Source of the DNA: Liolophura sinensis
Lineage: Eukaryota > Mollusca > Polyplacophora > Chitonida > Chitonidae
Assembly (NCBI RefSeq): GCF_032854445.1
Contig: NC_088307.1
Location: 124,001 to 188,000 of the forward strand
DNA: 64,000 bases
Direction: 5' to 3'
Positions 5,901-59,260 of the stretch are shown here, piece by piece. The notes beneath the pieces are model-generated. The model was not told the DNA's origin and did not search any database. It saw only the letters and a list, made by a program, of their open reading frames with translations. A program made the position numbers and the translations under genes. Numbering within the stretch: the stretch's first letter is position 1; the number at the start of each line of letters is the position of its first letter.

Positions 5901-8900
5901 GGATAGGCCTATGTCTGTACACGGAACTATATTCACACTTTCCAACGAGAATCCTGCGCGCCTCAGCAGGTCGCCGACACAACCCAGTAGACAGCTTGTC
6001 ATGCGCCAACTGAGTGTGTTTAATCCCAGAGTACCCAGCAAAATCCATGTGCCCACAACATTTGAGAATGAAAGACAGACAAATACATGCACATTCACAT
6101 GTAAACGTCTGTGACACTTTAACGTAACTTCTTTAGTGGAGATAATATATGAAGAACACCAGCCATGGAGACTTACCTCTTCATGTATGCTGTTTGTGAA
6201 GACACTCTCCACAGCCTTGTTGATGCTCTCATCAGTTCTACTGACAGACGGCTGGTGAACAACCACAGGTGAGCCTACAAGTGAAAACCATGTATATATC
6301 TTCTCACATCAACATAAATGTCTTCTTTCACAATTTAAAGACTACAAATGTGCAATGTATGTACAATGTATGAGTGCTAAGGATCTCTGGTATTGGGTGT
6401 GCACATATACGTACGATGTACAAGTGCTAAGGATGTCTGGTATTGGGTGTGCACATACATGTACAATGTATGAGTGAAAGGATCTCTGGAGTTGGGTGGG
6501 CACATACACTACATGTACAATGTACGAGTGCTAAGGATCTCTGGTATTGGGTGTGCACATATACGTACAATGTACGAGTGCTAAGGATGTCTGGTACTGG
6601 GTGTGCACACACATGTACAATGTATGAGTGAAAGGATCTCTGGTGTTGGGTGTGCACATATATGTACAATGTACGAGTGCTAAGGATGTCTGGTATTGGG
6701 TGTGCACATACATGTACAATGTATGAGTAAAAGGATCTCTGGTGTTGGGTGTGCACATACACTACATGTACAATGTATGAGTGCTAAGGATCTCTGGTAT
6801 TGGGTGTGCACATATACGTACAATGTACGAGTGCTAAGGATGTCTGGTATTGGGTGTGCACATACGTGTACAATGTATGAGCGAAAGGATCTCTGGTATT
6901 GGGTGCGCACATACATGTACAATGTATGAGTGAAAGGATCTCTGGAGTTGGGTGGGCACATACATGTACAATGTATAATTGCTAAGGATGTCTGGTATTG
7001 GGTGTGCACATACACTATATGTACAATGTATGAGTGCTAAGGATGTCTGGTATTGGGTGTGCACATATACGTACAATGTACAAGTGCTAAGGATGTCTGG
7101 TATTGGGTGTGCACATACATGTACAATGTATGAACGAAAGGATCTCTGGTGTTGGGTGAGCACATACATGTACAATGTATGAGTGAAAGGATCTCTGATG
7201 TTGGGTGGGCACATACATGTACAATGTACGAGTGCTAAGGGTCTCTGGTGTTGGGTGTGCACATATACGTACAATGTACAAGTGCTAAGGATGTCTGGTA
7301 TTGGGTGTGCACATACACTATATGTACAATGTATGAGTGCTAAGGATCTCTGGTATTGGGTGTGCACATATATGTACAATGTACAAGTGCTAAGGATGTC
7401 TGGTATTGGGTGTGCACATACATGTACAATGTATGAGTGAAAGGATCTCTGGAGTTGGGTGGGCACATACACTACATGTACAATGTATGATTGCTAAGGA
7501 TGTCTGGTGTTGGGTGTGCACATACATGTACAATGTATGAGTGAAAGGATCTCTGGAGTTGGGTGTGCACATACATGTACAATGTATGAGTGAAAGGATC
7601 TCTGATGTTGGGTGGGCACATACATGTACAATGTACGAGTGCTAAGGGTCTCTGGTGTTGGGTGTGCACATATACGTACAATGTACAAGTGCTAAGGATG
7701 TCTGGTATTGGGTGTGCACATACACTATATGTACAATGTATCAGTGCTAAGGATCTCTGGTATTGGGTGTGCACATATATGTACAATGTACAAGTGCTAA
7801 GGATGTCTGGTATTTGGTGTGCACATAAATGTACAATGTATGAGTGAAAGGATCTCTGGAGTTGGGTGGGCACATACACTACATGTACAATGTATGATTG
7901 CTAAGGATGTCTGGTGTTGGGTGTGCACATATACGTACAATGTACGAGTGCTAAGGATGTCTGGTATTTGGTGTGCACATAAATGTACAATGTATGAGTG
8001 AAAGGATCTCTGGAGTTGGGTGGGCACATACATGTACAATGTACGAGTGCTAAGGATGTCTGGTATTGGGTGTGCACATACACTATATGTACAATGTATG
8101 AGTGCTAAGGATGTCTGGTATTGGGTGTGCACATAAATGTACAATGTATGAGTGAAAGGATCTCTGATGTTGGGTGAGCACATACATGTACAATGTATGA
8201 GTGAAAGGATCTCTGGAGTTGGGTGGGCACATACACTACATGTACAACGTATGATTGCTAAGGATGTCTGGTATTGGGTGTGCACATACATGTACAATGT
8301 ATGAGTGAAAGGATCTCTGGTGTTGGGTGTGCACATACACTACATGTACAATGTACAAGTGCTAAGGATATCTGGTGTTGGGTGTGCTCATACATGTACA
8401 ATGTACAAGTGCTAAGGATGTCTGGTGTTGGGTGTGTTCATACATATTCAATGTATGAGTGCTAGGGATGTCTGGTGTTGAGTGTGCTCATAAATGCACA
8501 ATGTACAAGTGCTAAGGATGTTTGGTGTTGGGTGTGCTCATACATGTACAATGTACAAGTGCTAAGGATGTCTGGTGTTGGGTGTGCTCATGTACAATAT
8601 ACAAGTGCTAAGGATGTCTGGTGTTGGGTGTGCTCATACGTGTACAATGTACAAGTGCTAAGGATGTTTGGTGTTGGGTGTGCTCATACGTGTACAATGT
8701 ACAAGTGGTAAGGATGTCTGGTGTTGGGTGTGCTCATACATGTACAATATACGATCGCTAAGGATGTCTGGTGTTGGGTGTGCTCATACGTGTACAATGT
8801 ACAACTGTTAAGGATGTCTGATGTTGGGTGTGTTCATACATGTACAACGTACAAGTGCGAGTGCTAAGGATGTCTGGTGTTGGGTGTGCTCATACGTGTA

Positions 8901-11900
8901 CAATGTACAAGTGCTAAGGATGTTTGGTGTTGGGTGTGCTCATACGTGTACAATGTACAAGTGGTAAGGATGTCTGGTGTTGGGTGTGCTCATACATGTA
9001 CAATATACGATCGCTAAGGATGTCTGGTGTTGGGTGTGCTCATACGTGTACAATGTACAACTGTTAAGGATGTCTGATGTTGGGTGTGTTCATACATGTA
9101 CAATGTACAAGTGCGAGTGCTAAGGATGTCTGGTATTGGGTGTGCACATGCACTATATGTACAATGTATGAGTGCTAAGGATGTCTGGTATTGGGTGTGC
9201 ACACAAATGTACAATGTATGAGTGAAAGGATCTCTGATGTTGGGTGGGCACATACATGTACAATGTATGAGTGAAAGGATCTCTGGAGTTGGGTGGGCAC
9301 ATACACTACATGTACAATGTATGATTGCTAAGAATGTCTGGTATTGGGTGTGCACATACATGTACAATGCACGAGTGAAAGGATCTCTGGTGTTGGGTGT
9401 GCACATACACTACAAGTACAATGTACAAGTGCTAAGGATATCTGGTGTTGGGTGTGCTCATACATGTACAATGTACAAGTGCTAAGGATATCTGGTGTTG
9501 GGTGTGCTCATACATGTACAATGTACAAGTGCTAAGGATGTCTGGTGTTGGGTGTGTTCATACATATTCAATGTATGAGTGCTAGGGATGTCTGGTGTTG
9601 AGTGTGCTCATAAATGCACAATGTACAAGTGCTAAGGATGTTTGGTGTTGGGTGTGCTCATACATGTACAATGTACAAGTGCTAAGGATGTCTGGTGTTG
9701 GGTGTATTCATGTACAATGTACAAGTGCTAAGGATGTCTGGTGTTGGGTGTACTCATACATGTATAATGTACAAGTGCTAAGGATGTTTGGTGTTGGGTG
9801 TGCTCATACGTGTACAATGTACAAGTGCTAAGGATGTCTGGTGTTGGGTGTGCTCATACATGTACAATATACGATCGCTAAGGATGTCTGGTGTTGGGTG
9901 TGCTCATACGTGTACAATGTACAACTGCTAAGGATGTCTGATGTTGGGTGTGCTCATGCATGTACAATGTACAAGTGCTAAGGATGTCTGGTGTTGGGTG
10001 CGCTCATACATGTACAATATACGATCGCTAAAGATGTCTGGTGTTGGGTGTGCTCATACATGTACAATATACGATCGCTAAGGATGTCTGGTGTTGGGTG
10101 TGCTCATACATGTACAATGTACAAGTGCTAAGGATGTCTGGTGTTGGGTGTGCTCATACATATTCAATATACGATCGCTAAGGATGTCTGGTGTTGGGTG
10201 TGCTCATACATGTACAATGTACGATAGCTAAGTATGTCTGGTGATGAGTGTGCTCATACATGTACAATGTACAAGTGCTAAGGATGTCTGGTGTTGGGTG
10301 TGCTCATAAATGTACAATATACGATCGCTAAGGATGTCTGGTGTTGGGTGTGCTGATACATGTACAATGTACAAGTGCTAAGGATGTCTGGTGTTGGGTG
10401 TGCTCATACATGTACAATGTACAAATGCTAAGGATGTCTGGTGTTGGGTGTGCTCATACATATTCAATATACGATCGCTAAGGATGTCTGGTGTTGGGTG
10501 TGCTCATACATGTACAATGTACGATAGCTAAGTATGTCTGGTGATGAGTGTGCTCATACATGTACAATGTACAAGTGCTAAGGATGTCTGGTGTTGGGTG
10601 TGCTCATAAATGTACAATATACGATCGCTAAGGATGTCTGGTGTTGGGTGTGCTGATACATGCACAATGTACAAGTGCTAAGGATGTTTGGTGTTGGGTG
10701 TGCTCATACATGTACAATGTACAAGTGCTAAGTATGTCTGGTGATGAGTGTGCTCATACATGTACAATGTACAAGTGCTAAGTATGTCTGGTGATGAGTG
10801 TGCTCATACATGTACAATGTACAAGTGCTAAGGATGTCTGGGTTTGGGTGTGCTCATACATGTACAATGTACAAGTGCTAAGGATGTCTGGTGTTGGGTG
10901 TGCTCATACATGTGCAATATACGATCGCTAAAGATGTCTGGTGTTGGGTGTGCTCATACATGTACAATATACGATCGCTAAGGATGTCTGGTGTTGGGTG
11001 TGCTCATACATGTACAATGTACAAGTGCTAAGGATGTCTGGTGTTGGGTGTGCTCATACATGTACAATATACGATCGCTAAGGATGTCTGGTGTTGGGTG
11101 TGCTCATACATATTCAATATACGATCGCTAAGGATGTCTGGTGTTGGGTGTGCTCATACATGTACAATATATGATCGCTAAGGATGTCTGGTGTTGGGTG
11201 TGCTCATACATGTACAATGTACAAGTGCTAAGGACCTCTAGTGTTGGGTGTGCACATACATGTACAATGTACAAGTGCTAAGGATCTCTGGTGTTGGGTG
11301 TGCACATACATGTACAATGTACAAGTGCTAAGGATGTCTGGTGCATACATGTACAATGTATGAGTGCTAAAAATGTCTGGTGTTGGGTGTACACACACAT
11401 GAACAATGTATGAGTGGTGTTTAGATCTGTTCAGGGCTCACACCTTGCCTATCCAGGAAATGAACTAGGTATTTACAGAGATCCAGTACCCAGTATCTAC
11501 AGAGATCCAGCACCCATTATCTATACAGATCCAGCACTTACAGAGATCCGGCACCCAGTGTTTATAGAGATCCAGCACTTAGAGACCCAGTACTCAGTAT
11601 CTACAGAGATCCAGCACCCAGTATCTACAGAGATCCAGCACCCAGTATCTACAGAGATCCAGAACTTACTGCGATCCAGCACCCAGTGTCTACAGAGATC
11701 CACCACTTACAGAGATCCAGTATTCCATATCTACAGAGATCCAGCACCCAGTATCTACAGAGATCCAGCAAATACAGAGATCCGACACCCAGTGTGTATA
11801 GAGATCCAGCACTTACAGATCCAGTACTCAGTGTCTACAGAGATCCAGCACTTACAGAGATCCAGAACCCAGTGTCTACAGAGATCCAGTACTCAGTGTC

Positions 11901-14900
11901 TACAGAGATCCAGCACTTACAGAGATCCAGCATTTAGTGTCTATAGAGATCCAGCACTTACAGAGATCCAGCACCCAGTGTCTATAGAGATCCAGCACTT
12001 ACAGATCCAGTACTCAGTGTCTACAGAGATCCAGCACTTACAGAGATCCAGCACCCAGTGTCTATAGAGATCCAGTACTTACCAATCCAGTACTAAGAGT
12101 ATCTAAGGAGATCCAGCACCCAATATCTACAGAGATCCAGAATTTACTGAGATCCAGAACCCAGTGTCTACAGAGATCCAGTACTCCGTATCTACAGAGA
12201 TCCAGCACTTACAGAGATCCAGCACCCAGTATCTACAGAGATACAGCACCCTATATCTTCAGAGATCCAGCACCAAGTATCTACAGAGCCAGAGTTACAG
12301 AAACCCTGTACCTACCACTCTCTACAGAGATCTATTTATTTATTTATGTGACTGGTGTTTCACGACGTACTCAAGAATATTTCATTCATACGAAGGCAGC
12401 CAGCATTATGCTGGGAGGAAATTATGCCATGCATGGGGTAAACCTACCAAATCCATAGATTCCTGGCAGACACTTTCACATGGAACCGGAGAGGGAGCCA
12501 ACATAGGCTAGACTTTAACTCACAGCAACCACATTCGTGGGAGGGTTCTGGGTCATGGCTATGCACTGACATGCTAACCCCCCTCGGCCACATACAGAAA
12601 GCACCTAGATACCCAGTATCTACCACTCTCTACAGAGATTTAGCATCTGGAGACACCCAATAACTAAAGAGCTGGCACCTATAGAGATCTAGCACTTACA
12701 GCCCCAGTATCTAGAGAGACCTAGTATTCACAGAGACACAGTAGCTATAGAGACCCAGTATCTACAGAAACCCAGTATATACAGAGATTCATGCAGTGCC
12801 TGTGGAGACCCAGTATCTACAGAAACCTTGTACCGACAGAGACCCAGTGTCTATATTCAACATCTACAGAGACCAGTTTCTACAGAGATTCAGTGCATAC
12901 ACTCTGTATCCAAAGAGACCCAGTATCCACAAACTCCCAGTATCTAAGGAAACCCAGTATATACGGAGACTCAATATCTTTGGAGACCCAGTATATACAG
13001 AAACCTTGTACGTACAGAGACCCAGTGTCTACATTCAACATTTGCAGAGATCAGTATCTACAGAGATTCGGTGCCTACAACCAGTATCTAAGGAGACCCA
13101 ATATATACAGAGACTAAGTATATGTGGAGACCTAGTATCTAGAGAAACCTTGTACCTACAGAGACCCAGTGTCTATATTCTACATCTGCCGAGACCCAGT
13201 AGCTACAGAGAATCAGTATCCACAGAGATTCAGTGCCAACACTCTGCATCTACAGACACCTGGTATATAAGGAGACCCAGTATCTACAGAGACTCAGTGC
13301 CAACACTCTGCATCTACAGACACCCGGTATATAAGGAGACCCAGTATATACAGAGACTCAGTATCTATAGAGACTCAGTGCCAACGCTCTGTATCTACAG
13401 ACACCCGGACTATTAAGGAGACCCAGTATATACAGAGACTCAGTATCTACAGAGACTCAGTGCCAACACTCTGTATCTACAGACACCCGGTATATAAGGA
13501 GACCCAGTATGTACAGAGACTCAGTATCTACAGAGACTCAGTGCCAACACTATGTATCTACAGAGACCCAGTACATATATAGACTCAGTATCTATGGAGA
13601 CACAGTATCTACAGAATTCTTGTACGTACAGAGATCCAGTGTCTATATTCAACATCTGCAGAGACCCAGTATATACAGAGACTGAGTATCTGTGGAGACC
13701 CAGTATCTACAGAAACCTTGTATCTAAAAGAGACGCAGTGTCTATATTCAACGTCTGCTGAGACCAGTATCCACAGAGATTCAGTGTTTACACTTAGTAT
13801 CTACAGAGACCAAGTACCTCCAGAGACCTGTTATCTACAGACATCCAGTGTCTACACATTCACCTCCAGCACCTACAGCTTTTAAGACCTGGCAGGTATC
13901 ATTAGGTGTTCATTGTCAACATCCACTTTTTACAAGGTCATTTATATCGCCCTCATGGCAGGAGTATACAACTTGAAATTTAAAAGAACTGATCAAAATT
14001 CAAATAGGGTTTAGCGCCTACAGTGATCTGTACACTCCCATTACAGAGTTATGTCCCTTACCAGGTTTTTCCACTGGCCTCTGCTCAACTTGTGCTGGCA
14101 GACTGCTGGACAAAGACTGGCTAAGCCTGGCTGCTGCAGCCTGCCCTGGTTGACTGACACTATTTGGTGGTGTCTGTCTGGACACTATCTGGCTTGATAC
14201 AACTGGTTGGTTATAAGCAGGAACTTGGCTTGATGGCATCTCTCCTGGGACAGGCTTGTTCTGACTTACAGCCACAGGTGCAGCACTAAAGGCTGGGACT
14301 GGATTGTTTTGACTTACAGCCACAGGTGCAGCACTAAAGGCTGGGACTGGATTGTTTTGACTTACAGCTACAGGAACAGAGCTGAAGGCAGGGCTCCCAA
14401 TTGTTGCAGGCTGCTGAGCATTAGAAGCCACACTCACGGGAAGCTTACCAGGAACTGAGGTCGAAGAAAAAACAACATCATTCTCACAATTCTTGCAAAA
14501 AAGGACCTTGTCTGGCAAATTTATCTATTTGGTATTTATGTTACAGCACCAAAATATTTGACAGGTACAGTTTGAAAGAGGAAAGACAAATGAATATTGA
14601 TAACATCATTTTTCAAATTGTCCAAGTAATATTTTTATCAAAGGAATCATTTATTAAGGGCATGCTTTGTTAGAATCAACACCAACATACTGTCTAACTT
14701 TTACAATTTCTCATCATAAAAGGCTAAAACTCTCCACATGTTGGGTAATTTATTTATTTATTTATTGATTAGTGTTTTACGAATATTTCATTTATACGAC
14801 GGCGGCCAGTATTATGGTGGGGAGGGAGGGGAGGGAGGGGAGGGGAGGAACTGGGCAGAGCCCAGAGAAAACCCACAACCATCCACAGCTTGCTGGCAGA

Positions 14901-17900
14901 TCTTCCCACATACAGCCGGAGAGGAAGCCAGCATGAGCTGGACTTGAACTCACAGCGACCGCATTGGTGAGAGGCTCCTGGGTCATTACGTTGAGCTGGC
15001 GCTCTAACCAACTGAGCCACGGAGGCCCCTGTTGGGTAATGGGCTACAACATAGTGATCATAATACTAAATGGCTGGTGTGTTCAAACAATCATTACATG
15101 ATTCCATTCCATGATGGTGCTGAATGTAAGCAAGGTGAAATGGAAAATTTTCAATATTTGTATAACTGAGGTCTTGTCAAAAATTCATTCGAGATTCATT
15201 CAGATTTGAGCTCAGTGCATGTACAATGTGTGAGAATGACTTCTATGGACCTCTGAATACAGTGACTTCTTCCAAATGACAAAATCTTGATACCTTGAGT
15301 GACTCCAGTAAAAGCCATGCTAGGTCCAGACTGACCAAAAGTAATGCTTCCCGTTGGCTGGTTTGTTCCAAATGAAAAGGAAGGCCCAAAAGAGAAAGAT
15401 GGCACTGGATTGGCTAGAGCAGAACCTGCTGGCTGATTGGATGGGTTATAGGTGGCCGGGGTAGAACTGGCTGGTTTGAAAAGGCTTGACTTTTGAGTAG
15501 TGGCTGTAGAGATTGGGGGTTCTGACTGCTGAGGCATTCTGGCTGTAGATGAACTTTGTGAAGACCCTCCATCAAAACGAAGTTCTGCAGTTCCAATTCC
15601 TGCCACACTGCCTACAATATATAAAAATGCCATAAATCACACACTATCACCGTCCTTCACCTGACCTGTGAGTGTGCTTCACTTGTAACATGATCCAAAT
15701 ATATGCTGTACATTTTTGAGAAAAAAACCAAAGATTTACTTTCACAATGATTCTAAAATACAAGACCAAAAGTTGTGTTTATTTATTTGATGGGAGATTT
15801 ATGCCACACTCTAGAATATTTTACCTACATGTATACAACGGGCACCTGCATTATGGTGGGAAGAAACTGGGCTGAGCCCGGGTGAAACCCACCACCATCT
15901 GCAGGTTGCTGACAGGCCAGAGATGAAGTCTGCAAGAGCTGGACTTAATGTACATCGATTGCATTGGTGAGAGGCTGGTGGGGTATCACTATATGGAAGT
16001 TGCGAACTAAGTAATATTTCGTAATCGACTGCACACAAAACATCAACAATGGAACATTACCTTTGTGTCAGTGTGATTGTTTGCATTCATAGCTCAATGT
16101 AAGCAGTAATTTTTGATGAGAGATAAGACCTCTACATGCCCAATGATCTATGTCAACATTGATTCTTATACATGCCATATTTGGAACAGTCAAACAGTCT
16201 CGGCACAGTGGGACACCACAGTTTTATTACCAGAGGTGTGTCAACAGTCAAACAGTCCAGGCATAGTGGGACACCACAGTTTTATTACACTACAGGTGTG
16301 TCAACAGTCAAACAGTCTTGACAAAGTGAGACACGACAGTTTTATTACACTACAGGTGTGTCAACAGTCAAACAGTCTGGGCACAGTGGGACAATGAAGT
16401 TTTATTACACTACAAATGTGTCTACAGTCAAACATTCTTGACAAAGTGAGACACCACAGTTTTATTACACTACAGGTGTGTCAAAAGGCAAACAGTCTGG
16501 GCACAGTGGGACAATGAAGTTTTATTACACTACAGATGTGTCATTCTTGGCACAGTGGGACACCAAAGCTTTATTACTACAGGTGTGTCAACAGTCAAAC
16601 AGTCTCGGCACAGTGGGACACCACAGTTTTATTACCAGAGGTGTGTCAACAGTCAAACAGTCTTGGCACAGTGGGACACCACAGTTTTATTACACTACAC
16701 ATGTGTCAACAGTCAAACATTCTTGACAAAGTGAGACACCACAGATTTATTACACTACAGGTGTGTCAACAGGCACACAGTCTGGGCACAGTGGGACAAT
16801 GAAGTTTTATTACACTACAGATGTGTCATTCTTGGCACAGTGGGACACCAAAGCTTTATTACTACAGGTGTGTCAACAGTCAAACAGTCTTGGCACAGTG
16901 GGACACCACAGTTTTATCATCAGAGTTGTGTCAACAGTCAAACATTCTTGGTATAGTGGCACACCAAAGTTTTATTACACAACAGATGCGTCAACAGTCA
17001 AACACTCTTGGCATAGTGGGACACCAAAGTTTTATTACAATACAGATGTGAGAAACACCACAAATAGTGTACACCTGTATATACACTGTATGTAGGTGAG
17101 ACCAGGCACTACATTTATCACCATGGACCCAATGCCCAAGTATTCAGTTGCTACATGTATAGGTGTGGTATTTTTGCTACATTATGAAAGTATGGATGTG
17201 CTTCACCGTAAATAGTCTACACCTGTATACACACTGTATGTAGGTGAGACCAGGCACTACATTTATAACCATGGACCCAGAGCCCAAGAATTCATGTGCT
17301 ACATGTATAGGTGTGGTCAATTTTGCCACATAATGCATGTATGGATGAGCTACACCATAAATAGTGTACAACTGTATATACCCTGTATGTAGGTGAGACC
17401 AGGCACTACATTTATCACCATGGACCCAACGCCCAAGTATTTATGTGCTACATGTATAGGTGTGGTCAATTTTGCCACATAATGCATGTATGGATGAGCT
17501 ACATCATAAACAGTGTACACCTGTATATACACTGTATGTACGTGAGACTAGGCACTACATGTATAGGTGTAATTTTGCCACATAATGCATGTATGGATGA
17601 GCTACATCATAAACAGTGTACACCTGTATATACACTGTATGTAGGTGAGACTTGGCACTACATGTATAGGTGTGGTCAATTTTGCTACATAATGCATGTA
17701 TGGATGAGCTACACCATAAATAGTGTACAACTGTATATACCCTGTATGTAGGTGAGACCAGGCACCACATTTATCACCATGGACCCAACGCCCAAGTATT
17801 TATGTGCTACATGTATAGGTGTGGTCAATTTTGCCACATAATGCATGTATGGATGAGCTACACCATAAATAGTGTACAACTGTATATACCCTGTATGTAG

Positions 17901-23900: not shown

Positions 23901-26900
23901 TTAGCTACACTGCAGGAATCAAAGGAGGATTAAAGCCACCCATGATGATACCTGTTTGACATGCTTGAATAATTTATATCTTGGAAAATTTTAGGATCTT
24001 AAGATTTGTTTCTCAGTATTCTCTTAAATTCGCTAAAATGAATTCCAGCAACATATTTTTGGAGACAATCTTCAAAAAAAATAATAAGTACTTTACATCA
24101 CCATTTTGGTTTCTATATTGACTGTGGATCTGTTTATTGGTTATTCTCTACTCATAATAATGTTTGTCAGGAATTTTGAGATCTGGAATAAAACAGTAAA
24201 AAACTGATCACAGGTTTTCTTAGGATTAATTAATTTACTATACCACCAAATAATCTGAAATCAGGTATGACACACTGGAGGAATTGGTGCATGGAATACA
24301 AGTCTAAATTTCGGAAACAAATATTAAAACTTACCATTTTGTTGTGAGGGTGCCATATTTAAAGGTAAGTTGGAATTTTAAACGTTGTCAATAGCCGCAC
24401 AATCAGTCAGTTTATCACTGTGGTTAATTTTCTGATAAAAAGTATGTTGACGGTATGAAGAAATGATTTTATCTGCTCACCGTTGACCAGCAACATATTT
24501 TTGGAGACAATCTTCAAAAAAAATAATAAGTACTTTACATCACCATTTTGGTTTCTATATTGACTGTGGATCTGTTTATTGGTTATTCTCTACTCATAAT
24601 AATGTTTGTCAGGAATTTTGAGATCTGGAATAAAACAGTAAAAAACTGATCACAGGTTTTCTTAGGATTAATTAATTTACTATACCACCAAATAATCTGA
24701 AATCAGGTATGACACACTGGAGGAATTGGTGCATGGAATACAAGTCTAAATTTCGGAAACAAATATTAAAACTTACCATTTTGTTGTGAGGGTGCCATAT
24801 TTAAAGGTAAGTTGGAATTTTAAACGTTGTCAATAGCCGCACAATCAGTCAGTTTATCACTGTGGTTAATTTTCTGATAAAAAGTATGTTGACGGTATGA
24901 AGAAATGATTTTATCTGCTCACCGTTGAGCAGAAACAACTTTATGTACCCTGTCCCCCGAAGGCCTCAAAGATTACGCCGTCCTGCAATGACTCAACACC
25001 AACTCAAAATTAGATTAATTTAATCAATATTAAAAAGGAAGCTAAACTTGAAATACAGCGAGTGGAGAAAATTGGATGTCTTGTTTATAACAAGGATTTC
25101 CACCTGGTCAGCAGAACCCTGCGTTCAATGGTGTGGGTATAATTATCAATGGTTTACTGTTTAGGACTTATGATAAATAAAAGAAGACCAACACCTCCCG
25201 TTAAAGTGGTAAATATGTCTTTTACATTGTTTCAGCACACAACCGATCAACTTTATATATTATTATTTCTTGAATATCAGTAAAACAGAACAAAAAAGTG
25301 AAAAAAAAAAAACAATCCCGAGAATCCGACGTGAATTGGCTGTTGTGACGATTCCGTGCATAAAAATACTAAAAATATACATAACAGTTATATAGCCTAC
25401 TGAACTGTTATTTGGGTATATTTGTGTTGTGTCTATGCAGATCTACCTCAACATGTAACCCGTCGTATAACAGTGTCTAACTAGTTTGAGATTTAGTAAT
25501 GATAAATCTAATATTATGAACAGCCGATTCTAACTTCTTCATATTGCATCATATTCTATTTTGGCTATTTATGTAAGTGAATGTCAATGTGTCAGTCAGG
25601 ACCAATTTGCACAAATATGCCTTTTTAAAATGTACTTAGCAATTAAAGTTCGTTATCGATTGTAAGGTATGCAGAAGCCTGGGATAAAATTGTTGTATAT
25701 ACCAGTTATTTTCCTAATATTGTTTGCTCTGTTTCCGTCTTAAAACTTCACTTATGTAGTTAATTTCTATATGCATCAGCTCAATCCATGCATTCATCTG
25801 GCTAATTTATGTCTTTAAAAATCAGCATTTCAGTACACTAACATTTCTTTTTGCATTTACTGAAAAATAACGTTGAATTGCACTTTTCAATACTAATACA
25901 GAAATTAATAAAGTCAGATTTTATGTTATATTTACAGTTTAATAGTCTATATATACTATATAAGCTTAAAGTCTTTCGTGTCACCGACAAAATAGTAGGC
26001 CCTATCTGAGCAGCATTTGCCTGAACATGCATAACCTATTGTTTTCTAATTAAGCACTCCATGTGTCTGGTGGACTTCAACATAAACCCTGTACTTGAAA
26101 TGAACTCAATTAGAAATCCATGTGTGGTAATCCTGGATTACTCACACATATTCACATGTGTGACTGAATGTCTAATATAGACCTCAAATTTCCCGATCAC
26201 CAATGCCAAACTAAAAGTCGGCAAGTCCGGTACTAGTACCGGCTCTTCATAATTTGACAAGTATTGCAATTCATTTTTACTTGATAACCTTGCGTAATCC
26301 GTAGACTATACCGGTCACTGGCATTCTGTTGTTGTAGCAGGCACTATTTGCCAATTTCGGCAGTAGAAGACCAGTGTACTTATGTCTCTGTTACACATCA
26401 CAATACACTCTTCCTATATTAATACGCAAACGATTTTATGTTCTGTTTGTAAAATAAACGAACTGGTTAAACCACATACGTTTTAACCAAATCGTGTTTA
26501 ATAAGTAGATATAAAACAATAATAGGGGACGGTTCCTTACGTATGACAACTGAAGTATTTTTGACATCCACATATTAAGTATCACAATTTACTGTGATAC
26601 TGAGGATGTGAGTGAGTGAGTGTTTTGGGTTTAATATATTAAGTATCACAACCCACCGGGGTATTGATGAGGACAGCACAGGGCTGCTCACTGCTCTCAG
26701 AGTCCAATGATAAAAACGTTCCTATGAACATGTAAGTCGACTCCCACAGGATGTCAATCACTGAAACATGCAGAAAGGCACAAGCATGGATTATATTGTT
26801 GAATAAGGAGAGATAGATACATGCATCGGTATCAGTGTCTTAATTCTGGTTTGTGTTTCAGGTCACTACACCCCATCCTATATTCCTATTCACGTACACT

Positions 26901-29900
26901 GGTGCTGATTGCCAGATACAGTAGAAATCTTTTTTTCTGCCAGGGTCTGCTCATACTCACTTCAGACCTCTAGACAGTTAGGGTACTCTCCTTGTTTTCT
27001 TTCTTTCAGGGTTTGATCACACTCACATTGAAATCTTCAGGGTTCCAGACAGTTGTTCTAAGGTCCTTACTTACTTTCTTTCTTTCAGGGATTGATCATA
27101 CTCACTTTTAAACCTTTGGGGCTCCAGACAGTTGGGGTATGGTCCTCTCTTTTTTTCTGTCAGGGTTTGATCATACTGACTGAATGTTCCATCCAATTTG
27201 CCAACCACTAGTTGCTTCCCTTTTGGACTCCAACACACTAAGACAGATTTTAACAGATTTTAAATTGACCACATATATATAAAATGTAGTCAGTATAAAT
27301 ATTTTACTAGTACTGTACATGGTGTGGAAAATGTACCCACATACTAGTGAAGCCTACAATGCTATTAATGAAACACATATCACACCCACATCACTGGAAG
27401 TCTGGGTGGGTGTCAAAAGCCAGGCATACGCGACTTACTACAGGTACATGTAGTGGGTGGGTGAAGGGAAGCAGAACTTACATAAGGTAGCCCGGGTGGG
27501 ATGGGGAAGCGTAGGGACCGCATTGGTGAGAGGCTCTTGGGTCATTACGCTGCGCTAGCGCGATAACCAACTGAGCCATAGAGGCCCCCCTTACAGCGAG
27601 TAGCCTGGGTGGATAACGCAAACCGGGCAGACATGGCTTACAGCAGGTAGCCTGGGTGGTTGGGGGAAGCCTGGTGGAAATGGCCTACAGAAGATAACCT
27701 GGGTGGGTTGGGGAAATCTAGTAGACACGGTTTACAGCAGGTAGCCTGGGTGGGTTGGGGAAATCTAGTAGACACGGTTTACAGCAGGTAGCCTGCGTGG
27801 TTGGGGGAAGCCTGGTAGACATGACTTACAGCACATACATGTAGTCTGGGTGGATGCATGAAGTTTGGCAGACATGGTTTACAGCAGGTAACCTGGGTGG
27901 GTGGGGAGTTTGGCAGACATGGCTTACAGAAGGTAGTCTGGGTGGTTGGGGGAAGCCTGGTGGACATGGCTTACAGCAAGTAGTCTGGGTGGGTGGAGGA
28001 AGTCTGGCAGACATAACTTACAGCAGGTAGCCTGGGTGGATGGAGGAAGTCTGGCAGACATAACTTACAGCATGTACCCTGGGTGGGTGGGGGAAGTCTG
28101 GCAGACATAACTTACAGCAGATAGCCTGGGTGGGTGGGGGAAGTCTGGCAGACATAACTTACAGCAGGTAGCCTGGGCGGGTGGGGGAAGTCTGGCAGAC
28201 ATAACTTACAGCAGATAACCTGGGTGGGTGGGGGAAGTCTGGCAGATATGACTTACAGCAGACAGCCTGGGTGGGTGGAGGAAGTCTGGCAGACATAACT
28301 TACAGCAGGTAGCCTGGGTGGGTGGGGGAAGTCTGGCAGACATAACTTATAGCAGGTAGCCTGGGTTGGTGGGGGAAGTCTGGCAGATATGACTTACAGC
28401 AGGTAGCCTGGGTGGATGGAGGAAGTCTGGCCATGACCACCACCTTGTCCGTAACACTGAGAAGGGCTAGACTGCCATCGGACAGACAGAGCGCCAGTAG
28501 GTGGGGCAGGGCTGGGTTCCAGGCAGAGTCCAGGAGGCGGAGCCCTTGATTGTCAATCTGATAACTGGTTCTCACCACAGGAGCTGAACCCTGAAACAAC
28601 ACAACAGACAAACACATCAGCTGACTCCTGAAAACATCTCAACAGACAAACACATCAGGTGACTAATGAAAACATCACAACAGACAAACACATCAGGTGA
28701 CTCCTAAAAACATCACATCAGACGAACACATCAGCTGACTCCTGAAAACATCAGAACAGACAAACACATCAGCTGACTCCTGAAAACATCACAACAGACG
28801 AACACATCAGCTGACTCATGAAACACCACAACAGACAAACACATCAGCTGACTCCTGAGAACATCACAACAAACACATCAGCTGACTCCTGAAAACATCA
28901 CAACAGACAAACACATCAACTGACTCCTGAAAACATCACAACAGATGCTCACATCAACTGACACATCACTGAATGAGTGCTTCAATGATCTAGGTTTGCC
29001 CATTAAGAACATAAACAAACTTTATCATCCTGCAATGTAACCTACATCTCATGCTGAGCTAACCATCATATAAAACACTACAGCATAGTAATATTGGAGC
29101 AAACTAGTTGGCAAATTGCCACAAGCAACAGGCAAAATACACACCCATCATAGATAACAAACATGCAGGGGTGATCATTTCCATTTCCTACACAGTAATC
29201 ATGGTAATACTGGCATGACTTTGCTGCTCTGTAATTACGTACACCAACCCTTTGTTGGTCTGGAATTACGTACCCCACAACTTTGTTGGTCTGGAATTAA
29301 GTACCCCACACCTTTGCTGGTCTGGAATTACGTGCCCCACACCTTTGCTGGTCTGGAATTACATAACCCACACCTTTGCTGGTCTGGAATTACGTAACCC
29401 ACACCTTTGCTGGTCTGGAATTACGTGCCCCACACATTTGCTGGTCTGGAATTACGTACATCACACCTCTGCTGGTCTGGAACTACTTACATCACACCTT
29501 TGCTGATCTGGAACTACGTAACCCACACCTTTACTGGTCTGGAATTACGTAACCCACACTTTTGCTGGTCTGGAATTACGTGCCCCACAGCGTTGTTGGT
29601 CTGGAATTACGTAACCCACACCTTTGCTAATCTGGAATTACGTGCCCCACACCTTTGCTGGTCTGGAATTACGTAACCCACACCTTTGCTGGTCTGGAAT
29701 TACATGCCCCACACCTTTGGTGGTCTGGAATTACTTACATCACACCTTTGCTGGTCTGGAATTACGTACATCACAACTTTGCTGGTCTGGAATTACATAA
29801 CCCACACCTTTGCTGGTCTGGAATTACGTAACCCACACCTTTGCTGGTCTGGAATTACGTAACCCACACCTTTGCTGATCTGGAATTACGTAGCCCACAC

Positions 29901-32900
29901 CTTTGCTGATCTGGAATTACATAACCCACACCTTTGCTGGTCTGGAATTACGTACATCACACCTTTGCTGGTCTGGAATTACGTACCACACACCATTGCT
30001 GGTCTGGAATTACGTAACCCACACCTTTGCTGATCTGGAATTACGTAGCCCACACCTTTGCTGATCTGGAATTACATAACCCACACCTTTGCTGGTCTGG
30101 AATTACGTACATCACACCTTTGCTGGTCTGGAATTACGTACCACACACCATTGCTGGTCTGGAATTACGTAACCCACACCTTTGCTGGTCTGGAATTACT
30201 TACATCACAGCTTTGCTGATCTGGAATTACGTAACCCACACCTTTGCTGGTCTGGAATTACTTACATCACACCTTTGCTGATCTGGAATTACGTAACCCA
30301 CACCTTTGATGGTCTGGAATTACTTACATCACACCATTGCTGATCTGGAATTACGTGCCCCACACCTTTGCTGGTCTGGAATTACGTACCCCACACCTCT
30401 GCTGGTCTGGAATTACGTAACCCACACCTTTGCTGGTCTGGAATTACTTACATCACACCTTTGCTGGTCTGGAATTACGTGCCCCACTCCTTTGGTGGTC
30501 TGGAATTACGTACCCCACATCTTTGCTGGTCTGGAATTATGTACATCACACCTTTGCTGATCTGGAACTACGTAACCCACACCTTTGCTGGTCTGGAATT
30601 ACGTGCCCCACACCTCTGTTGGTCTGGAATTACGTGCCCCACACCTTTGGTGATCTGGAATTACGTACATCACACCTTTGCTGGTCTGGAATTACGAAAC
30701 CCACACCTTTGCTGATCTGGGATTACGTAACCCACACCTTTGCTGGTCTGGAATTACGTAACCCACACCTTTGCTGATCTGGAATTACATAACCCACACC
30801 TTTGCTGGTCTGGAATTACGTACCCCACACCTTTGCTGGTCTGGAATTACTTACATCACACCTTTGCTGATCTGGAATTACGTACATCACACCTTTGCTG
30901 ATCTGGAATTACGTACATCACACCTTTGCTGATCTGGAATTACGTACATCACACCTTTGCTGATCTGGAATTACGTACATCACACCTTTGCTGGTCTGGA
31001 ATTACTTACACCAGATCTTTGCTGGTCTGGAATTACATAACCCACACCTTTGCTGGTCTGGAATTACGTAGCCCACACCTTTGCTGGTCTGGAATTACGT
31101 AACCACACCTTTGCTGATCTGGAATTACGTAACCCACACCTTTGTTGATCTGGAATTACGTACATCACACCTTTGCTGGTCTGGAATTACGTAACCCACA
31201 CCTTTGCTGATCTGGAATTACGTAACCCACACCTTTGTTGATCTGGAATTACGTACATCACAACTTTGCTGGTCTGGAATTACGTAGCCCACACCTTTGC
31301 TGATCTGGAATTACATAACCCACACCTTTGTTGATCTGGAATTATGTACATCACATCTTTGCTGGTCTGGAATTACGTAGCCCACACCTTTGTTGATCTG
31401 GAATTATGTACATCACACCTTTGCTGGTCTGGAATTACTTACACCAGATCTTTGCTGGTCTGGAATAACGTAACCCACACCTTTGCTGGTCTGGAATTAC
31501 GTAGCCCACACCTTTTGTTGATCTGGAATTACGTAACCCACACCTTTGCTGATCTGGAATTACTTACATCAAACCTTTGCTGGTCTGGAATTACGTAGTC
31601 CACACCTTTGCTGATCTGGAATTACATAACCCACACCTTTGCTGGTCTGGAATTACGTAGCCCACACTTTGCTGATCTGGAATTACATAACCACACCTTT
31701 GTTGATCTGGAATTATGTAACCCACACCTTTGCTGGTCTGGAATTACGTAACCCACACCTTTGCTGATCTGGAATTACGTAACCCACACCTTTGTTGATC
31801 TGAAATTACGTACATCACACCTTTGCTGGTCTGGAATTACGTACATCACACCTTTGCTGGTCTGGAATTACATAACCCACACCTTTGCTGGTCTGGAATT
31901 ACGTAGCCCACACCTTTGCTGATCTGGAATTACATAACCCACACCTTTGCTGGTCTGGAATTACATAACCCACACCTTTGCTGATCTGGAATTACGTAAC
32001 CCACACCTTTGCTGATCTGGAATTACATAACCCACACCTTTGCTGGTCTGGAATTACATAACCCACACCTTTGCTGATCTGGAATTACGTAACCCACACC
32101 TTTGCTGATCTGGAATTACGTAACCACACCTTTGCTGATCTGGAATTACATAACCCACACCTTTGCTGATCTGGAATTACGTACATCACACCTTTGCTGT
32201 CTGGAATTACATAAACCACACCTTTGCTGGTCTGGAATTACATAACCCCACACCTTTGCTGATCTGGAATTACGTAACCCACACCTTTGCTGATCTGGAA
32301 TTACATAACCCACACCTTTGCTGGTCTGGAATTACGTACATCACACCTTTGCTGGTCTGGAATTACGTACCCCACACCTTTGCTGGTCTGGAATTACGTG
32401 CCCCACACCTTTGCTGGTCTGGAATTACTTACATCACACCTTTGCTGGTCTGGAATTACGTACATCACACCTTTGCTGGTCTGGAATTACGTACATCACA
32501 CCTTTGCTGGTTTGGAATTACTTACATCAAAGCTTTGCTGGTTTGGAATTACGTAACCCCACACCTTTGCTGATCTGGAATTACGTAACCCACACCTTTT
32601 GTTGATCTGGAATTACGTACATCACACCTTTGCTGGTCTGGAATTACGTAGCCCACACCTTTGCTGGTCTGGAATTACATAACCCACACCTTTGCTGGTC
32701 TGGAATTACATAACCCACACCTTTGCTGGTCTGGAATTACGTAACCCACACCTTTGCTGATCTGGAATTACATAACCCACACCTTTGTTGATCTGGAATT
32801 ACGTACATCACACCTTTGCTGGTCTGGAATTACATAACCCACACCTTTGCTGGTCTGGAATTACGCAACCCACACCTTTACTGATCTGGAATTACGTAAC

Positions 32901-35900
32901 CCACACCTTTGCTGATTTGGAATTACATAACCCACACCTTTGCTGGCCTGGAATTACTTACATCACACCTTTGCTGGTCTGGAATTACATAGCCCACACC
33001 TTTGCTGGTCTGGAATTACGTGCCCCACACCTTTGCTGGTCTGGAATTACTTACATCACACCTTTGCTGGTCTGGAATTACTTACATCACACCTTCGCTG
33101 GTCTGGAATTACGTACATCACACCTTTGCTGGTCTGGAATTATGTACATCACACCTTTGCTGGTTTGGAATTACTTACATCAAAGCTTTGCTGGTTTGGA
33201 ATTACGTACACCAAACCTTTGCCTGCCATCGAAGTTTGGGGGTTAAAAAGTTGGAATGGGTTACCTGTTGAGTGAAGCTGTCAATGGTGTAGAAGAATGC
33301 GACGAGGTTGTCATTGCTGATCATAACAAGTAGTAAGATCTGATCGTCGGAACTGAGGGCGAGAGAGATGGGTGGCTGCGCAGTGTTCACATTCATCCAG
33401 ACAGGGCAGTCAGTTATCACCACTGTGCTCTTGTCTTTGGGGTGCTGACCATCTTTGTGGGAAATATCTGCCGTTTTCAGGACTGTGAACCCTAGGATGC
33501 CAACAAAACCGAGGTATTTACACAACAAGACTTTACTCGATCATTTAATCCAACTGACATATGGTTAAGGTTAATAAGAATATGACAAAAAGACAGTAAA
33601 CATGTATATAATTTACATGTGAATGATGAATGATGATTGACACTTCCTGATGTGAATTATTTCACAGAAAAAAAAAATAGTTTGACACTGAAGGATTTTG
33701 GGGACTGATTAAGAAAGTATTGGTACAGCACAACATGTCCCAAAATGGATTCCTGTACCAATACTGGTGCTACGAATACTTCAGCTTCTGATATTGATGT
33801 GAAGGCTTTTTTCTTTTTTTGCACAAATAAGACGGTTAGACCCATCCTAATTATTACACTATAGGTGAATAAACAATCGTAATTTATCGGTTTACCATTT
33901 CCAGTCTGACATTAGCAGAATTTATAGATTACTGAATAAATCTGAAGGCTGGTACATCTCCAGCACTACAATTGCATAAAACAAATATACGCACAGAAAC
34001 CAGTTGAATAAATAGGCACAGATCCTCAACAGCCATCTTCATGACAAAATTTTAATAGCAAACTTCAACGGTTTATTAATGAAGTACCAGTCTGGATAAA
34101 CAGGTATTTGTACCCAAAATATTTCATATTTTAAATATATCCAAATGCATAGAGCCATGGAGTTTTGGAGCACAAAGATTCTGATGTGTTGTAAAACACT
34201 GTCAGTTAAGTACAAATCTCCTGCAAGACGAATTGTAATTTTCATAGAACAAAATATTTATTTATTTATTTATTTGATTGGTGTTTTACGCCGTACTCAA
34301 GAGTATTTCACTTATACGACAGCGGCCAGCATTATGTTTGGAGGAAAGCGGGCAGAGCCTGGGGTAAATCCATATGGGTAAATCCAACCCGTCTTCAGTT
34401 TGCTGCAGGACAAACTAAACTGAATTCAGCAGAACTTGTGTATTGATAAAAGTAGTTCATATGTAGATACATGTGATATATGTAAATATCTGCCTAGGTC
34501 TTATTTTTACATGCACATGGCCCACTAGCCACCCCTGCCACCTTTTCTGCAAAAAAAAAAACAAAAAAACAAGAACGCACCAACTTGCCAAGCCATGAGC
34601 CATTGGTAAATGCACATGAAGTTTGAAGTGTGCAAGAGTTGATTTTACTTACCACTTGGGCCCCCGACAAATGTGAGGCCATATTTACTGGAACACGTTA
34701 ACAACTGTCCTCTGCCAGTCGTCTGTTCAGGCCATTTGTCAGAAATCTTCACCTTACACAGTTGTTGAAATCTGAACTCCTGTTTATAAGAAAATCAGAT
34801 GAAGTAAGGAAAGAAAAGTTAAACATATCCTGAAGTCTGTGGCGTACCGTATGTGTAGTGGCGAGTCATTAGGTGTGTGTGTACCAGGGCAAGTACATGC
34901 GGCCGAAGTGCTGAGTGCCAAGCGAGGCAGCAACAAGTACCATTTTTAAAGTCTTTGGGATGACCCCACCTGGAGTTGTTACCAGGTCTTCAGACCTGAA
35001 GGTGAATGCTATAACCCTTAGGCCCTGAAGCAGTCACCCATAGCGTTAGAATAATGCACTTCGCATCACGCTCATCCGCACAAAAATTAGAGATGGCAAA
35101 CATGGCTGCATGCTGAAAGTTTCACTGGGTCATGAGTGATTTAAACTGAACAGAAGATAATTTTAATCCAAGAAAAGTGCCCTCCCCTTGCCTAGGGATT
35201 GATTAATGAGAAAATGTCAGGTAGGAAGCATCAGGAAAGTTCTAACTGCAGACAAGATAATGGGGAACTCTGTGGGAGTTGTTAGTCCATCTAGATCGAC
35301 GCACTGTGCTGTTATCCAGCACCGCCTCTCAAAAATATGGTGCAGATTCCCATCACTGTCATGGCAACCCTACTCCGCTTCTCTTCTCAATTCTGTGTAA
35401 TTTTCAGAAAGAATCTTGAATACTCTCTTTGCTGCCTTGTGGTCACATTGACTGCTAGAACTTGACAGTACCAAGCACCTAGCCGTCAACAGACATTTTG
35501 TAGCATCAAGTGAGCTACTTCTGAGTTTGAAATGTAACAGAGCTTTAGCATTGAAACACTGCAAAAAACTACTATATTTCCATTACTATCTGTAAGCATA
35601 ACTTCAATCTTTTTAATTCAACCCAGATTTTTTTTTCTGAGAGGTGGGGATGGACTCAGTGCTACAATGATTTATTTATTTATAGTACAGACGTTGTATC
35701 ATTATCATATGGGGTAGTGGGGTAACTCTTATTGCGCAACGCAATGACGAAGGTTACAGGGAGAAAGAGCCTGAAATGTGTCGGGCTGACGGTAAGGTAT
35801 ATTTTCCGCTGTTCACCGCATTAAATCTTCCCTAGCTTAAATTCACGTCAGTCATGGGTCCATGGCAATCATGTCGGTTCAGGCAAAACAATCCCATTTT

Positions 35901-45094: not shown

Positions 45095-46627
45095 TACTAT
45101 CCAAAAAAAGAAACGCATAACCCGGTTTTTTGCGGAGGTGATGCAGTCTTTTCAATTATGCATAACTAAATAAGAATTGCTATTCTGCAAATATTTTTTT
45201 ACACAGATTAAGGAAGGGTCCATATCTAGACAACAAGGCCATCAACTTGAGGTAAGACACTCACAATGAGTCTCCCTCTTGAGTGGAATGTCAGTATCTG
45301 TTGTGACCACCACGGGCACGAATAACAGTTCTGACACGCCTTGTCATGAACTGGATGAAACGCTGGATAGAGGCCTGGGGAATGTCCTGCCACTCCTCCT
45401 GCAAACATCCAACTTGCTCTTGAAGCGTTTGGGGTTGAGGTTGACGTTGGCGTAGACGTCGATCAAGTTCATCCCACAGATGCTCAACTGGGTTAAGATC
45501 TGGGGAACGGGACGGCCAGGGTAGCACATTTACATTGTTTTCGGCGAGGAAGTCCCTTGTGACACGTGCCGTGTGCGGTCTGGCGTTGTCCTGCTGGAAC
45601 AACTCCCGCTGAACGTCAATGACAGGTAAGAGCTGTGGCTGCAGGATGGTGTCTCGGTAGCGTACGGCCGTAAGATTTCCCTGAACGTGGACAAGATTTG
45701 TACGACCAGTATACCATATTGCTGCTCACATCATCACACTCCCTCCACCAAATCTGTCCACTTGGCGTTCGCAGTTAGGGGCATAACGTTCGTGAGCACG
45801 TCTGTAAACCCGGTTTCTACCATCACGTCTCTGCAATAGGAATCTGGACTCATCACTGAAGCAAATGCGTCGCCAGTTGCGTAGATTCCATGCAGTCACG
45901 TTGTTACATCATCGGAGGCGATTGGCGCGATGGTGAGGACGCAGCACGATCCCAACATAGGGCCTCCTGGCTCTCAGTCCATGTTCCCTCAGCCTGTTCC
46001 GCACTGTCTGACCTGATATCCTCCTCAGTCCCGGTATGCTGGCTGCTGTGCTTTCAGCTGTAGCACAACGGTCACGCAAATGGAGGACCTTTATGTAGCG
46101 ATCTTGGGCTGCTGTAGTGACCCGTGGTCGACCTGAACACCGACGGTCATTTGTTGTCCCAGTATTGTTGTAGCGGGCAGCAAGCCGTGAAATCGTGCTC
46201 TGGCTGACGTGTAGATGCCTAGAAATGGACGATTGGGACTCTCCAGCTTGAAGTCTTCCAATGGCAATATTTCTTGTGACAGTGTCAAGACGTGGCATGT
46301 TGAATCAGCTTGAAAACACCACTTGAAAGACGCCGATTTCCGGCCCGAAGTTGCGGTTTTATGGTCACACACTGCATGCTTTCCATGCGTAAGTTCGGCG
46401 TGTAAGACTGCACGTGATGCAGTGTGGTGCTGTATTTTTTACTTCTTCCAAAAACGGCCTCCAAACTCAACATTTTCAACCAAGAAATGTTTTGAGGAAT
46501 AAAATGTGTGCTAACTGTGACTATTAACAATATTAAAACACATTTTGCTCATGAAATGAAGACAAAATGTATTTATTTCATTTTAAAATAAAACAAAACA
46601 CCTATGCGTTTCTTTTTTTGGATAGTA
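45095..46627 (-). mobile_element. Tc1/mariner DNA transposon, inactive copy
   Basis: A 1.53-kb element has terminal inverted repeats of about 25 bp (tactatccaaaaaaagaaac at the left end) and a TA duplication on each side (45093-45094 and 46628-46629). It holds one transposase reading frame on the minus strand, interrupted by two stops. The perfect-looking termini suggest a fairly recent insertion. Confidence 0.95.
45291..46298 (-). pseudogene. Tc1-family DD34E transposase with two in-frame stops
   Basis: The frame is 335 codons long. The N-terminal third has paired helix-turn-helix regions (MPRLDTVTRNIAIGRLQAG; SQSTISRLAARY) and a GRPR-type motif (SGRPRVTT). The catalytic residues are present: Asp in FSDESRF, Asp in FQQDNARPH, and Glu in LNPVEHLWDEL, with 34 residues between the last two. 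In-frame TGA codons occur at 45909-45911 (codon 130) and 45726-45728 (codon 191). The second falls where relatives I recall carry Trp, so each may be a single TGG-to-TGA change. No frameshift is seen. The copy is presumably non-functional but could be mobilised in trans. Confidence 0.93.
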
Positions 46628-57479: not shown

Positions 57480-59260
57480 TATCTTGGTGGTCTTCTGTTT
57501 CACCTCGAGATTTGGAAAACAGTTTCTCGTGGATTCTAAAGTTACATGTAGGTCTTCCACTTGTAAATGTGATTGTCTGGGTTGTGCTTCTTGACCTGAC
57601 AGAATACAATGTCTGGCATTCCATGTTGATACATCATCTAACTGGGAAGATGCTAGGCCTGTTTTCGTTGTGATCTGGTTTAGACAAATCTGTTTTTAAC
57701 TTGTGACCTCGTTGTGGACGTTTTACACGAATCCAGTTACCAGATTCAAATTGCCACTGTTTTACATTTCGCCATGCATCGGTGTAACATTTAACCTTGT
57801 CTTGCTTCTTGTTTTTGCCCGTTGATCATCAGTTCCGCAAGTGATTTCTGGGTAAGTGTTGTGGCGTTGCAAGGTAGTTTTGCAAAAGAAAGCGGATACT
57901 TTGTGCGAAGGTTTCCCTCTCTCGGATTTTGGATTTCAGTGCTTCCTTCACGACTCTGTTGACTCTCTCAACGGCTCCGTTGCTTTGAGGACAGACAAGA
58001 GATGTTGGATCCGGTGTCTGGACAGAAACGTTTCAAATTCGCCGGAAGTGAATTGGGAACGGTTATCCGAAATAACATAAGTTAATCCCGAACGATCTGA
58101 GAGATCTTCTTAGATACGAATAACTGCATCTGAAGTTATTCTGTTGGTCGTAGCAATTTCTTGTCCCTTGGAATGGAAATCATGTACAACTAATATAAAT
58201 CTCCGAACCTGTGGAACAATTTGCACTTTGCCATGGATGTCTATGACAATCTCCTTCCAAGCTTGAGTTGGCCAAGGAACTGGCTGTAGTGGAGCCTGAA
58301 TGAGTTTTACCGATTTACCACTGGTCCACTGGTGCACAGTTTCTCACGAAATCTTCAATGTTTGTGTTCATGGAAGGCCACCAGATAGTTTCGCGACATC
58401 CCATGTTTCATGCGAGCTATGCCTGGGTGGGCACTACGCGCCATGTCCGTGAAACGCTCTTGAAGACTGTCAGGTATTACTGCTCTAGAACCACCGGTAA
58501 TATTCGAATCATTCCAAACAGATAACTCATGCTGAAGGCGGTGATATGCTTTCAGTTCTTTTGAAACATGATGAGGCCATCCATATAAACATAGCTGTAG
58601 GAGAACTGGATCGCTGGCTGAAGCTTGCTTGAGATCTTCCTGAATAAGACCGTTGAGATCAGTTCCAAGAACGCCAGCATCCCTCATCGCCGAAGTCGGC
58701 AATGTTTCTTCGGGAGAGAGTCTACTGAGCATGTCTGCTACTTCATTCTTGTTCCACTGATACGTTTCACATTGAAGTTGACTGAAGTAATCTATCAGCC
58801 CACCTGTAGATTCTCAAAGATCCAAATGTTGACAGTAATGCTTTCAGATGTCTGCTATCCTCGGTCTGGGGTATCTGCAGACAGCTACGTCTCAGATCAA
58901 GTTTAGTAGATTCATGAAATTTAGAAGTAGGTTCCCCTTTGGTCAATAGTGAGTATTTGTCTGCTACAAGAGCTTTGTTGACAACCCTTAGATCAACGCA
59001 TAATCGAATCTTTTTCTTTTCCTACGTGCCACAAGCAGACTTGAAATCCATGGCGAGGAATCAGTTTTCTTTATTATGGCGGCTTCCTCTAAACGCTTGA
59101 GTTTTGCTGAAACTCCTGGACGCACAGACAGGGGAACTCATCTCCGTTTCTGTGACACAGGTCGAACGGATGGGCCATCAGCTGGACGGTGTGCTTATTT
59201 GGTTGCCTTTCCAAAACCGGTGAACACTTGGGAAAACTGAGACGGAATGTCCACGGTCTG
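57480..59260 (-). mobile_element. Ty3/gypsy-type LTR retroelement pol relic
   Basis: Broken pol pieces occur in order on the minus strand. Reverse transcriptase start (SPWISSLLVAR, then a shifted LCVDL-like motif) lies at about 59060-58930. An RNase H/connection end (EVADMLSRLSPEE) lies near 58740. An integrase H2C2-like segment (HPGIARMKHGMSRN) lies near 58400. An integrase core piece (PWPTQAWKEIVIDIHGK) lies near 58260, and a C-terminal tail near 57700. Several stops, frameshifts and a deletion between reverse transcriptase and RNase H make it inactive. No LTRs were identified. It lies in the intron between the candidate upstream exons and the first firm CAP exon. Confidence 0.85.

Follow-up and report, generated by a model that had tools for sequence, protein, structure and literature searches.

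The end of exon 4 of NUP214 in the chiton Liolophura sinensis, together with the start of intron 4, is the first unit of a 47-bp minisatellite in which the exon 4/intron 4 junction is repeated over and over. The array was found in a window of 64,000 nucleotides (the whole stretch of DNA that was analyzed), where NUP214 is a gene of the minus strand. We regard the array as a "mirage", that is, a hypervariable minisatellite, and it is probably a neutral by-product of tandem duplication, which is tolerated and for which no regulatory role is needed.

The gene was identified by homology. Exons 3-6, when joined in frame, were found to match human Nup214 (PDB 3fmo, E 4.6e-33, query 39-215) and Pfam PF16755 (54.7 bits against a cut-off of 29.6), so that homology to the N-terminal beta-propeller of NUP214 is present. 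These matches agree with the name given to the gene in the initial annotation of this DNA. The exon 4/5 junction is ungapped in the printed alignment with human Nup214, and the end of exon 4 is supported by the homology to human Nup214 and PF16755; on this basis 28398 is the last exon base. The designation "exon 4" is a working number, as the annotation of NUP214 starts here at exon 3. The exons and the array are listed below, where a slash marks the splice site.

33265..33491, minus strand, NUP214 exon 3, donor AACAG/GTAACC
28398..28590, minus strand, NUP214 exon 4 (193 nt), acceptor TTTCAG/GGTTCAG, donor CTGCT/GTAAGT
28392..28397, minus strand, putative GTAAGT donor of exon 4, located from homology and reading frame
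27396..28431, minus strand, 47-bp junction minisatellite, 22 units if the decayed ones are counted, with its TRF core at 27590-28431
27515..27590, minus strand, tRNA-like or SINE-like insert in the distal array, recognized by eye
27106..27237, minus strand, NUP214 exon 5, donor TTTAAAA/GTGAGT
26657..26760, minus strand, NUP214 exon 6, its donor position set by eye

The 47-bp array stands directly after exon 4. Its unit, described at first as about 34 nt of exon and about 13 nt of intron, was found to consist of exactly 34 nt from the end of exon 4 (28398-28431) followed by 13 nt of intron 4, and it spans the exon boundary as the units of mirages do. The direct downstream repetition reported in the initial annotation was confirmed by TRF, which gave 17.8 copies at 27590-28431 with 84% matches, and by a wrap-around alignment, which gave 22 units between 28431 and about 27396 with extra bases in units 17-18 and decay in units 18-21. 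When the exon end was aligned with the units, the exonic 34-mer was found at 14 offsets in 27396-28397 under a threshold of 27/34 identities. Of the 13 distances between successive matches, 11 are 47 or 94. Mononucleotide shuffling of the array, done 200 times, yielded 22/34 at best. Neither ARAGORN nor Rfam reported anything for the tRNA-like or SINE-like insert.

A second copy of exon 4 was found on C496, a 27-kb contig. The identity between C496 and the window is 98.4% in exon 4, 99.1% in the tail of intron 4, and 96.0% and 93.8% in two other intron stretches. The same insert starts right after the array of C496 (the first 40 nt were seen). From the identity of the flanks and the shared insert, the C496 copy is taken as the other allele (allele B, with the window as allele A). 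The heterozygosity of the genome is reported to be 1.24% (PMC11068029); the name Liolophura sinensis was given to the species in a later correction (PMC12441733). If C496 is the allele, the array shows the instability of length between haplotypes that is typical of mirages, with 17.8 copies in the window and 30.8 on C496. The first unit (unit 0) is the same on both alleles, and the inner units differ in order; judged by eye, allele B seems to contain one block of five units twice (units 0-4, then units 5-9).

Tandem arrays are difficult to assemble, C496 is short, and the HiFi coverage is 14x, and one might therefore suspect that the array or its copy numbers were made by misassembly. Alternatively, C496 could be a paralogue instead of an allele, given that an ancient partial genome duplication has been reported for Liolophura sinensis (PMC12005716). 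However, the same array is found on two separate contigs with related but different unit orders and an insert common to both, its units are diverged and not identical, and the same pattern is seen in other genes. An intron identity of 94-99% does not fit an ancient duplicate. We consider an artefact of either type to be very improbable.

The units of allele A that follow the real donor comprise 21 decoys. GTAAGT is kept by 10 of the 20 decoys in which the donor columns are present on allele A and by 18 of 31 on allele B; as in other mirages, many but not all of the units carry splice signals. The initial annotation, in which every unit was said to carry GTAAGT, needs correction on this point. 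The other decoys of allele A read GTAAGC, GTAAAC, GTAGGC, GTAAGG, or ATAAGT, or have lost the donor, and the very first decoy is ATAAGT. The 9-mer of the real donor, GCT/GTAAGT, is present in 9 of 22 units of allele A and in 19 of 32 units of allele B, the real one included, so that the real donor has no sequence advantage over the decoys that share it.

The conservation of each column was determined over 45 nearly complete decoy units from both alleles. The share of the commonest base averages 0.907 in the exonic part and 0.964 in GTAAG, which ranks fifth among the 47 five-column windows, and it falls to 0.60 for the T at position +6, where the unit varies most. The donor is not singled out by conservation, and there are only weak signs of a special constraint on the decoy donors. 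In the predictions of local RNA accessibility, the real donor has a value of 0.11, and the GTAAGT decoys lie at 0.10-0.20. The two ATAAGT decoys were predicted to be more accessible, at 0.49-0.60, and two GTAAGC decoys to be less so (0.002 and 0.03). No RNA structure that hides the decoys was found in these predictions, which covered the first ten decoys on allele A and another twelve on allele B, including one that is out of register. Since decoys equal the real donor in sequence and in predicted accessibility, some other feature must decide among them, and position is the simplest candidate.

The use of a decoy donor was simulated for 17 of the 21 decoy units of allele A, which were translated whether or not a good donor remains (decoy 1 is ATAAGT), and all 17 gave a premature stop. 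For decoys 1-2 the frame is shifted and the stop falls in exon 5, and for decoys 3-17 the stop falls within the extension. It had been predicted from the outset that a downstream copy would shift the frame and soon meet a stop, and this is what was obtained in silico. Of 83 arrays, 10 carry GTRAGT in the sense strand of their units and 3 in the antisense strand, against a background of 92 and 61 (P 0.37), and there is no strand bias of donor motifs beyond that background.

The decoys could in principle act as a regulator, by binding U1 or by splicing unproductively, and so lower the output of NUP214, with the length of the allele tuning the effect. The recurrence of the real 9-mer on both alleles, the stops that follow from all decoys tested, the difference in copy number between the alleles, and the rank of GTAAG in conservation are in keeping with such a role, but we consider it improbable. 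Position +6 is the most variable column, half of the allele A decoys lack GTAAGT, the first among them, and unrelated genes carry similar arrays at about the rate expected by chance (see below). The initial annotation had left three possibilities for the array, namely that it is ignored, that it serves regulated or unproductive splicing, or that it is buffered by strict choice of the first site. "Ignored" or "buffered" fits best, and nothing found here favors regulation, as position +6 is so variable, the accessibilities are equal, and junction copies occur at near-chance rates.

Three further arrays were found in NUP214. The array described in the initial annotation is borne out, and the 38-bp and 75-bp arrays listed here were not mentioned there.

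28582..28945, minus strand, 38-bp array adjoining exon 4 at its acceptor, unit with TTTTCAG/GAGTCAGCT, TRF span entering the exon by 9 nt
26996..27177, minus strand, 75-bp array that covers the end of exon 5, with copy 1 exonic and later copies starting GTGAGT where the exonic sequence has GTCAGT
29219..33222, minus strand, 31-bp array of 129 copies that occupies most of intron 3, with 16 GTAAGT and 29 GTACGT on allele A

Five decoys of the 38-bp array fit TTTYCAG/G, and all five give a stop. The case for a boundary array at the acceptor of exon 4, which is made from the TRF span and the best copy, is weaker than that for the donor side; the best copy of the acceptor junction matches at 30/40 and reads TTTCAT, not CAG. 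A chance estimate for this acceptor was set aside because the random windows contained the array itself. At exon 5, the later copies may have arisen by an exchange in which the donor and an exonic sequence resembling it took part. In the 31-bp array, the motif before AATTCC differs between alleles A and B, with GTAAGT at 16 versus 2 and GTACGT at 29 versus 82, and no copy of the exon 3 junction 28-mer was found at 20/28 within 2 kb. The window and C496 carry 9.7 and 8.3 copies of the 38-bp unit, 2.4 and 2.9 copies at exon 5, and 129.2 and at least 189.8 copies in intron 3, the last array reaching the edge of the contig.

About 52% of the window consists of tandem repeats, and in the pieces fetched for myosins their share is 0-68%. 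The large arrays of the window include 6359-11416 (50 bp x 100) and 52842-56093 (48 bp x 67). Open frames that by eye resemble transposase or retroelement proteins were seen at 45294-46304 and 57832-59304.

The prevalence of junction copies was estimated by using a 28-mer centered on each splice site. Copies were counted at 22/28 or better and on the intron side only. One-sided copies were found at 3 of 15 NUP214 junctions, a number to be read with the knowledge that NUP214 was picked because of the finding; the donor of exon 6 would be a fourth at 20/28. At 23/28 or better, 1 of the 15 remains versus 0.96 expected from positions in the same region. For myosin heads, copies were found at 6 of 108 exon ends (four donors and two acceptors) versus 2.7 expected from intronic positions of the same regions (P 0.05); with donor-like positions (GTRNGT) as controls, the expected number of myosin donors is higher, at 2.2. 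For kinesins, copies were found at 2 of 160 ends (0 of 80 donors, two acceptors) versus 3.5 expected, with a reach of 400 nt for the real positions and 230 nt for the null, which favors finding an excess. The pooled count is 8 of 268 exon ends (95% interval 1.3-5.8%) versus about 6.2 expected (P 0.28), where about 11 of the 268 are ends of protein domains and not of exons.

In a less strict test by windows, a GT anywhere up to about 30 nt away from the exon end was accepted at 21/28 or better. The myosins gave 8 of 54 donors versus 2.9 expected (P 0.008) and 4 of 54 acceptors versus 2.8 expected (P 0.31). The donor windows of myosins and kinesins together, with a reach of 200 nt for real and null positions alike, gave 10 versus 6.7 expected (P 0.14).

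The myosin sample consists of 54 exons out of 81 matches, namely those in the 11 fetched regions, with rows containing stops kept; the kinesin sample consists of the first 80 stop-free rows among 132 matches; and SNF2 matches were left out of the counts. Splice sites were placed by eye in the flagged windows, and elsewhere a window around the end of the profile match was scanned. Among the myosins, we did not count the donor of gene 1 (21/28 at the exact junction), the acceptor of gene 0 (a pair of similar exons), the donors of genes 3, 5, and 7, where arrays begin in the intron beside the donor and the exact junction is uncopied, or the acceptor of gene 10, where the array overlaps the start of the profile match and the exact acceptor is uncopied. 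The kinesin rows that were not counted are L064 (the array stops short of the acceptor), L094 (one-sided only at the shorter reach), and L066 and L068 (21/28 only). The donor of gene 4 was counted despite a 124-bp unit with much of the exon, as was L101 at 22/28.

The enrichment of boundary arrays is borderline in myosins and absent in kinesins. Because intronic arrays are abundant and the pooled count is near chance, boundary arrays need no special cause, and the counts leave room for a mild attraction of arrays to donors. A stronger proposal is that splice sites favor the birth or persistence of minisatellites, either through microhomology between donor and exon or through selection on the terminal unit, which would preserve and re-seed the array. 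At exon 5 the change from GTCAGT to GTGAGT in the later copies is what exchange predicts, and the hexamer GTCATG occurs both in exon 4, just before the unit, and in the consensus unit after the donor. The myosin excess, at exact junctions and in donor windows, points the same way. The independent kinesin set does not repeat this excess, the pooled counts are not clearly above chance, and the myosin donor expectation is higher against the GTRNGT controls; we thus regard the proposal as unlikely.

Several other arrangements were observed elsewhere in the genome. In the joined L015-L016 (C3:25727000-25741900), a 124-bp unit that includes much of a myosin exon with the donor GGACAG/GTAGGT is repeated at least 7.7 times at 13949-14901, where the fetched piece stops. 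In the joined L010-L012 (C12:666600-687600), a 61-bp unit is repeated five times at gene-oriented positions 14873-15180; it carries the acceptor-like TTTTCACAG and, 12 nt on, the donor-like ATG/GTAAGAG. L006 contains two similar adjacent myosin exons (C1:26642195 and C1:26643291) at nearly the same profile positions, which are likely to be alternative exons. On contig C99, COX1 is found seven times at 8348-102844, about 15.5 kb apart and with one match partial, as if mitochondrial genomes had been joined head to tail; this may be a nuclear array or an assembly artefact.

The reading that we prefer is that of a neutral by-product. Slippage or unequal exchange would have duplicated in tandem a segment that by chance included the junction. 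The outermost copy would retain the whole exon followed by its donor, with the extra junctions added in the intron only. As the outer copy is intact, the duplication is tolerated and the protein unchanged if splicing takes the exon-proximal site, and on that condition the duplication could spread. Purifying selection would then keep unit 0 fixed, while the inner units would expand, homogenize, and decay. The donor would be chosen by position, and the use of a decoy would lead to a premature stop and presumably to nonsense-mediated decay, which would remove the errors. The structure of the units, the difference in copy number between the alleles, the identity of unit 0 on both of them, the near-chance prevalence, and the accessible yet unproductive decoys support the neutral reading. 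Counted against it are the myosins, which alone are about two-fold over chance (P 0.05, with donor windows at P 0.008), the copies at 3 of 15 NUP214 junctions, and the higher conservation of GTAAG relative to the exonic part. It is also expected that equal donors in series should compete.

Mirages have been described in amphioxus for Adh3, the globins BflGb6 and BflGb9, troponin C, and PGBD5, where RT-PCR indicated regular splicing (PMC3087553, PMC3902484), and somatic instability has been reported for the Adh3 mirage. The amphioxus cases and the chiton array have in common minisatellite-like boundary copies on the donor or acceptor side, with splice signals in many units, and a copy number that varies between haplotypes. 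The initial annotation did not make this connection, and its reading of the array is supported in part. The chiton differs in being a mollusc and not a cephalochordate, although the host is not a structural criterion. An amphioxus origin of the DNA had first been considered in view of the mirage literature, but the mitochondrial gene order reads as molluscan. It also differs in the size of the array (about 31 copies on one allele, whereas the BflGb6 haplotypes are reported to have 6 and 3 units) and in the presence of arrays at both sides of one exon and at the next exon. Regular splicing was reported for amphioxus, whereas the analysis of the chiton case covers genomic DNA.

Boundary minisatellites that vary in copy number are likewise reported for human segmentally duplicated genes, with 27 intron modifications (PMC2812944). 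Those cases involve novel introns and alternative splicing in recent paralogues, unlike the chiton case, in which the gene is the conserved NUP214 and the array lies on the intron side. Intron gain of the Rogers type likewise starts from a duplication that spans AG/GT signals (proto-splice sites) and could shift a boundary (PMC3087553), but no new intron was seen here, and exon 5 is explicable without a boundary shift. The portion of a report on gastropod hemocyanin introns that we consulted describes no such arrays (PMC7931591), and a topical search of openly licensed papers found no mollusc boundary minisatellite among the matches listed. The NUP214 array is a mirage of a kind known before, most likely a tolerated by-product, for which the phylum Mollusca is a new setting as far as we have found.

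Boundary minisatellites are hereby extended from the lancelet cases and recent human paralogues to a distant animal phylum. The frequency estimate from the 268 sampled ends, together with its chance baseline, makes a special mechanism unnecessary so far. The array is also a natural experiment on tandem donor choice, in which identical 9-mers recur every 47 nt, two alleles of unequal length are present in one assembly, and wrong choices are detectable as premature stops. When identical tandem donors are placed in competition assays, the intron-proximal site is often favored. Given that preference, it would be instructive if the first copy were strictly used here.

We suggest tentatively, and with more doubt than conviction, that a few per cent of the splice junctions of this chiton end in allele-variable ladders of equal-strength sites, and that the exon-proximal copy is taken by a position rule that beats up to some 18 identical competitors. 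If this is true, animal genomes rich in minisatellites would share boundary ladders as a feature that recurs across phyla, and the choice among tandem 5' splice sites could be studied in these ladders as a natural test bed.
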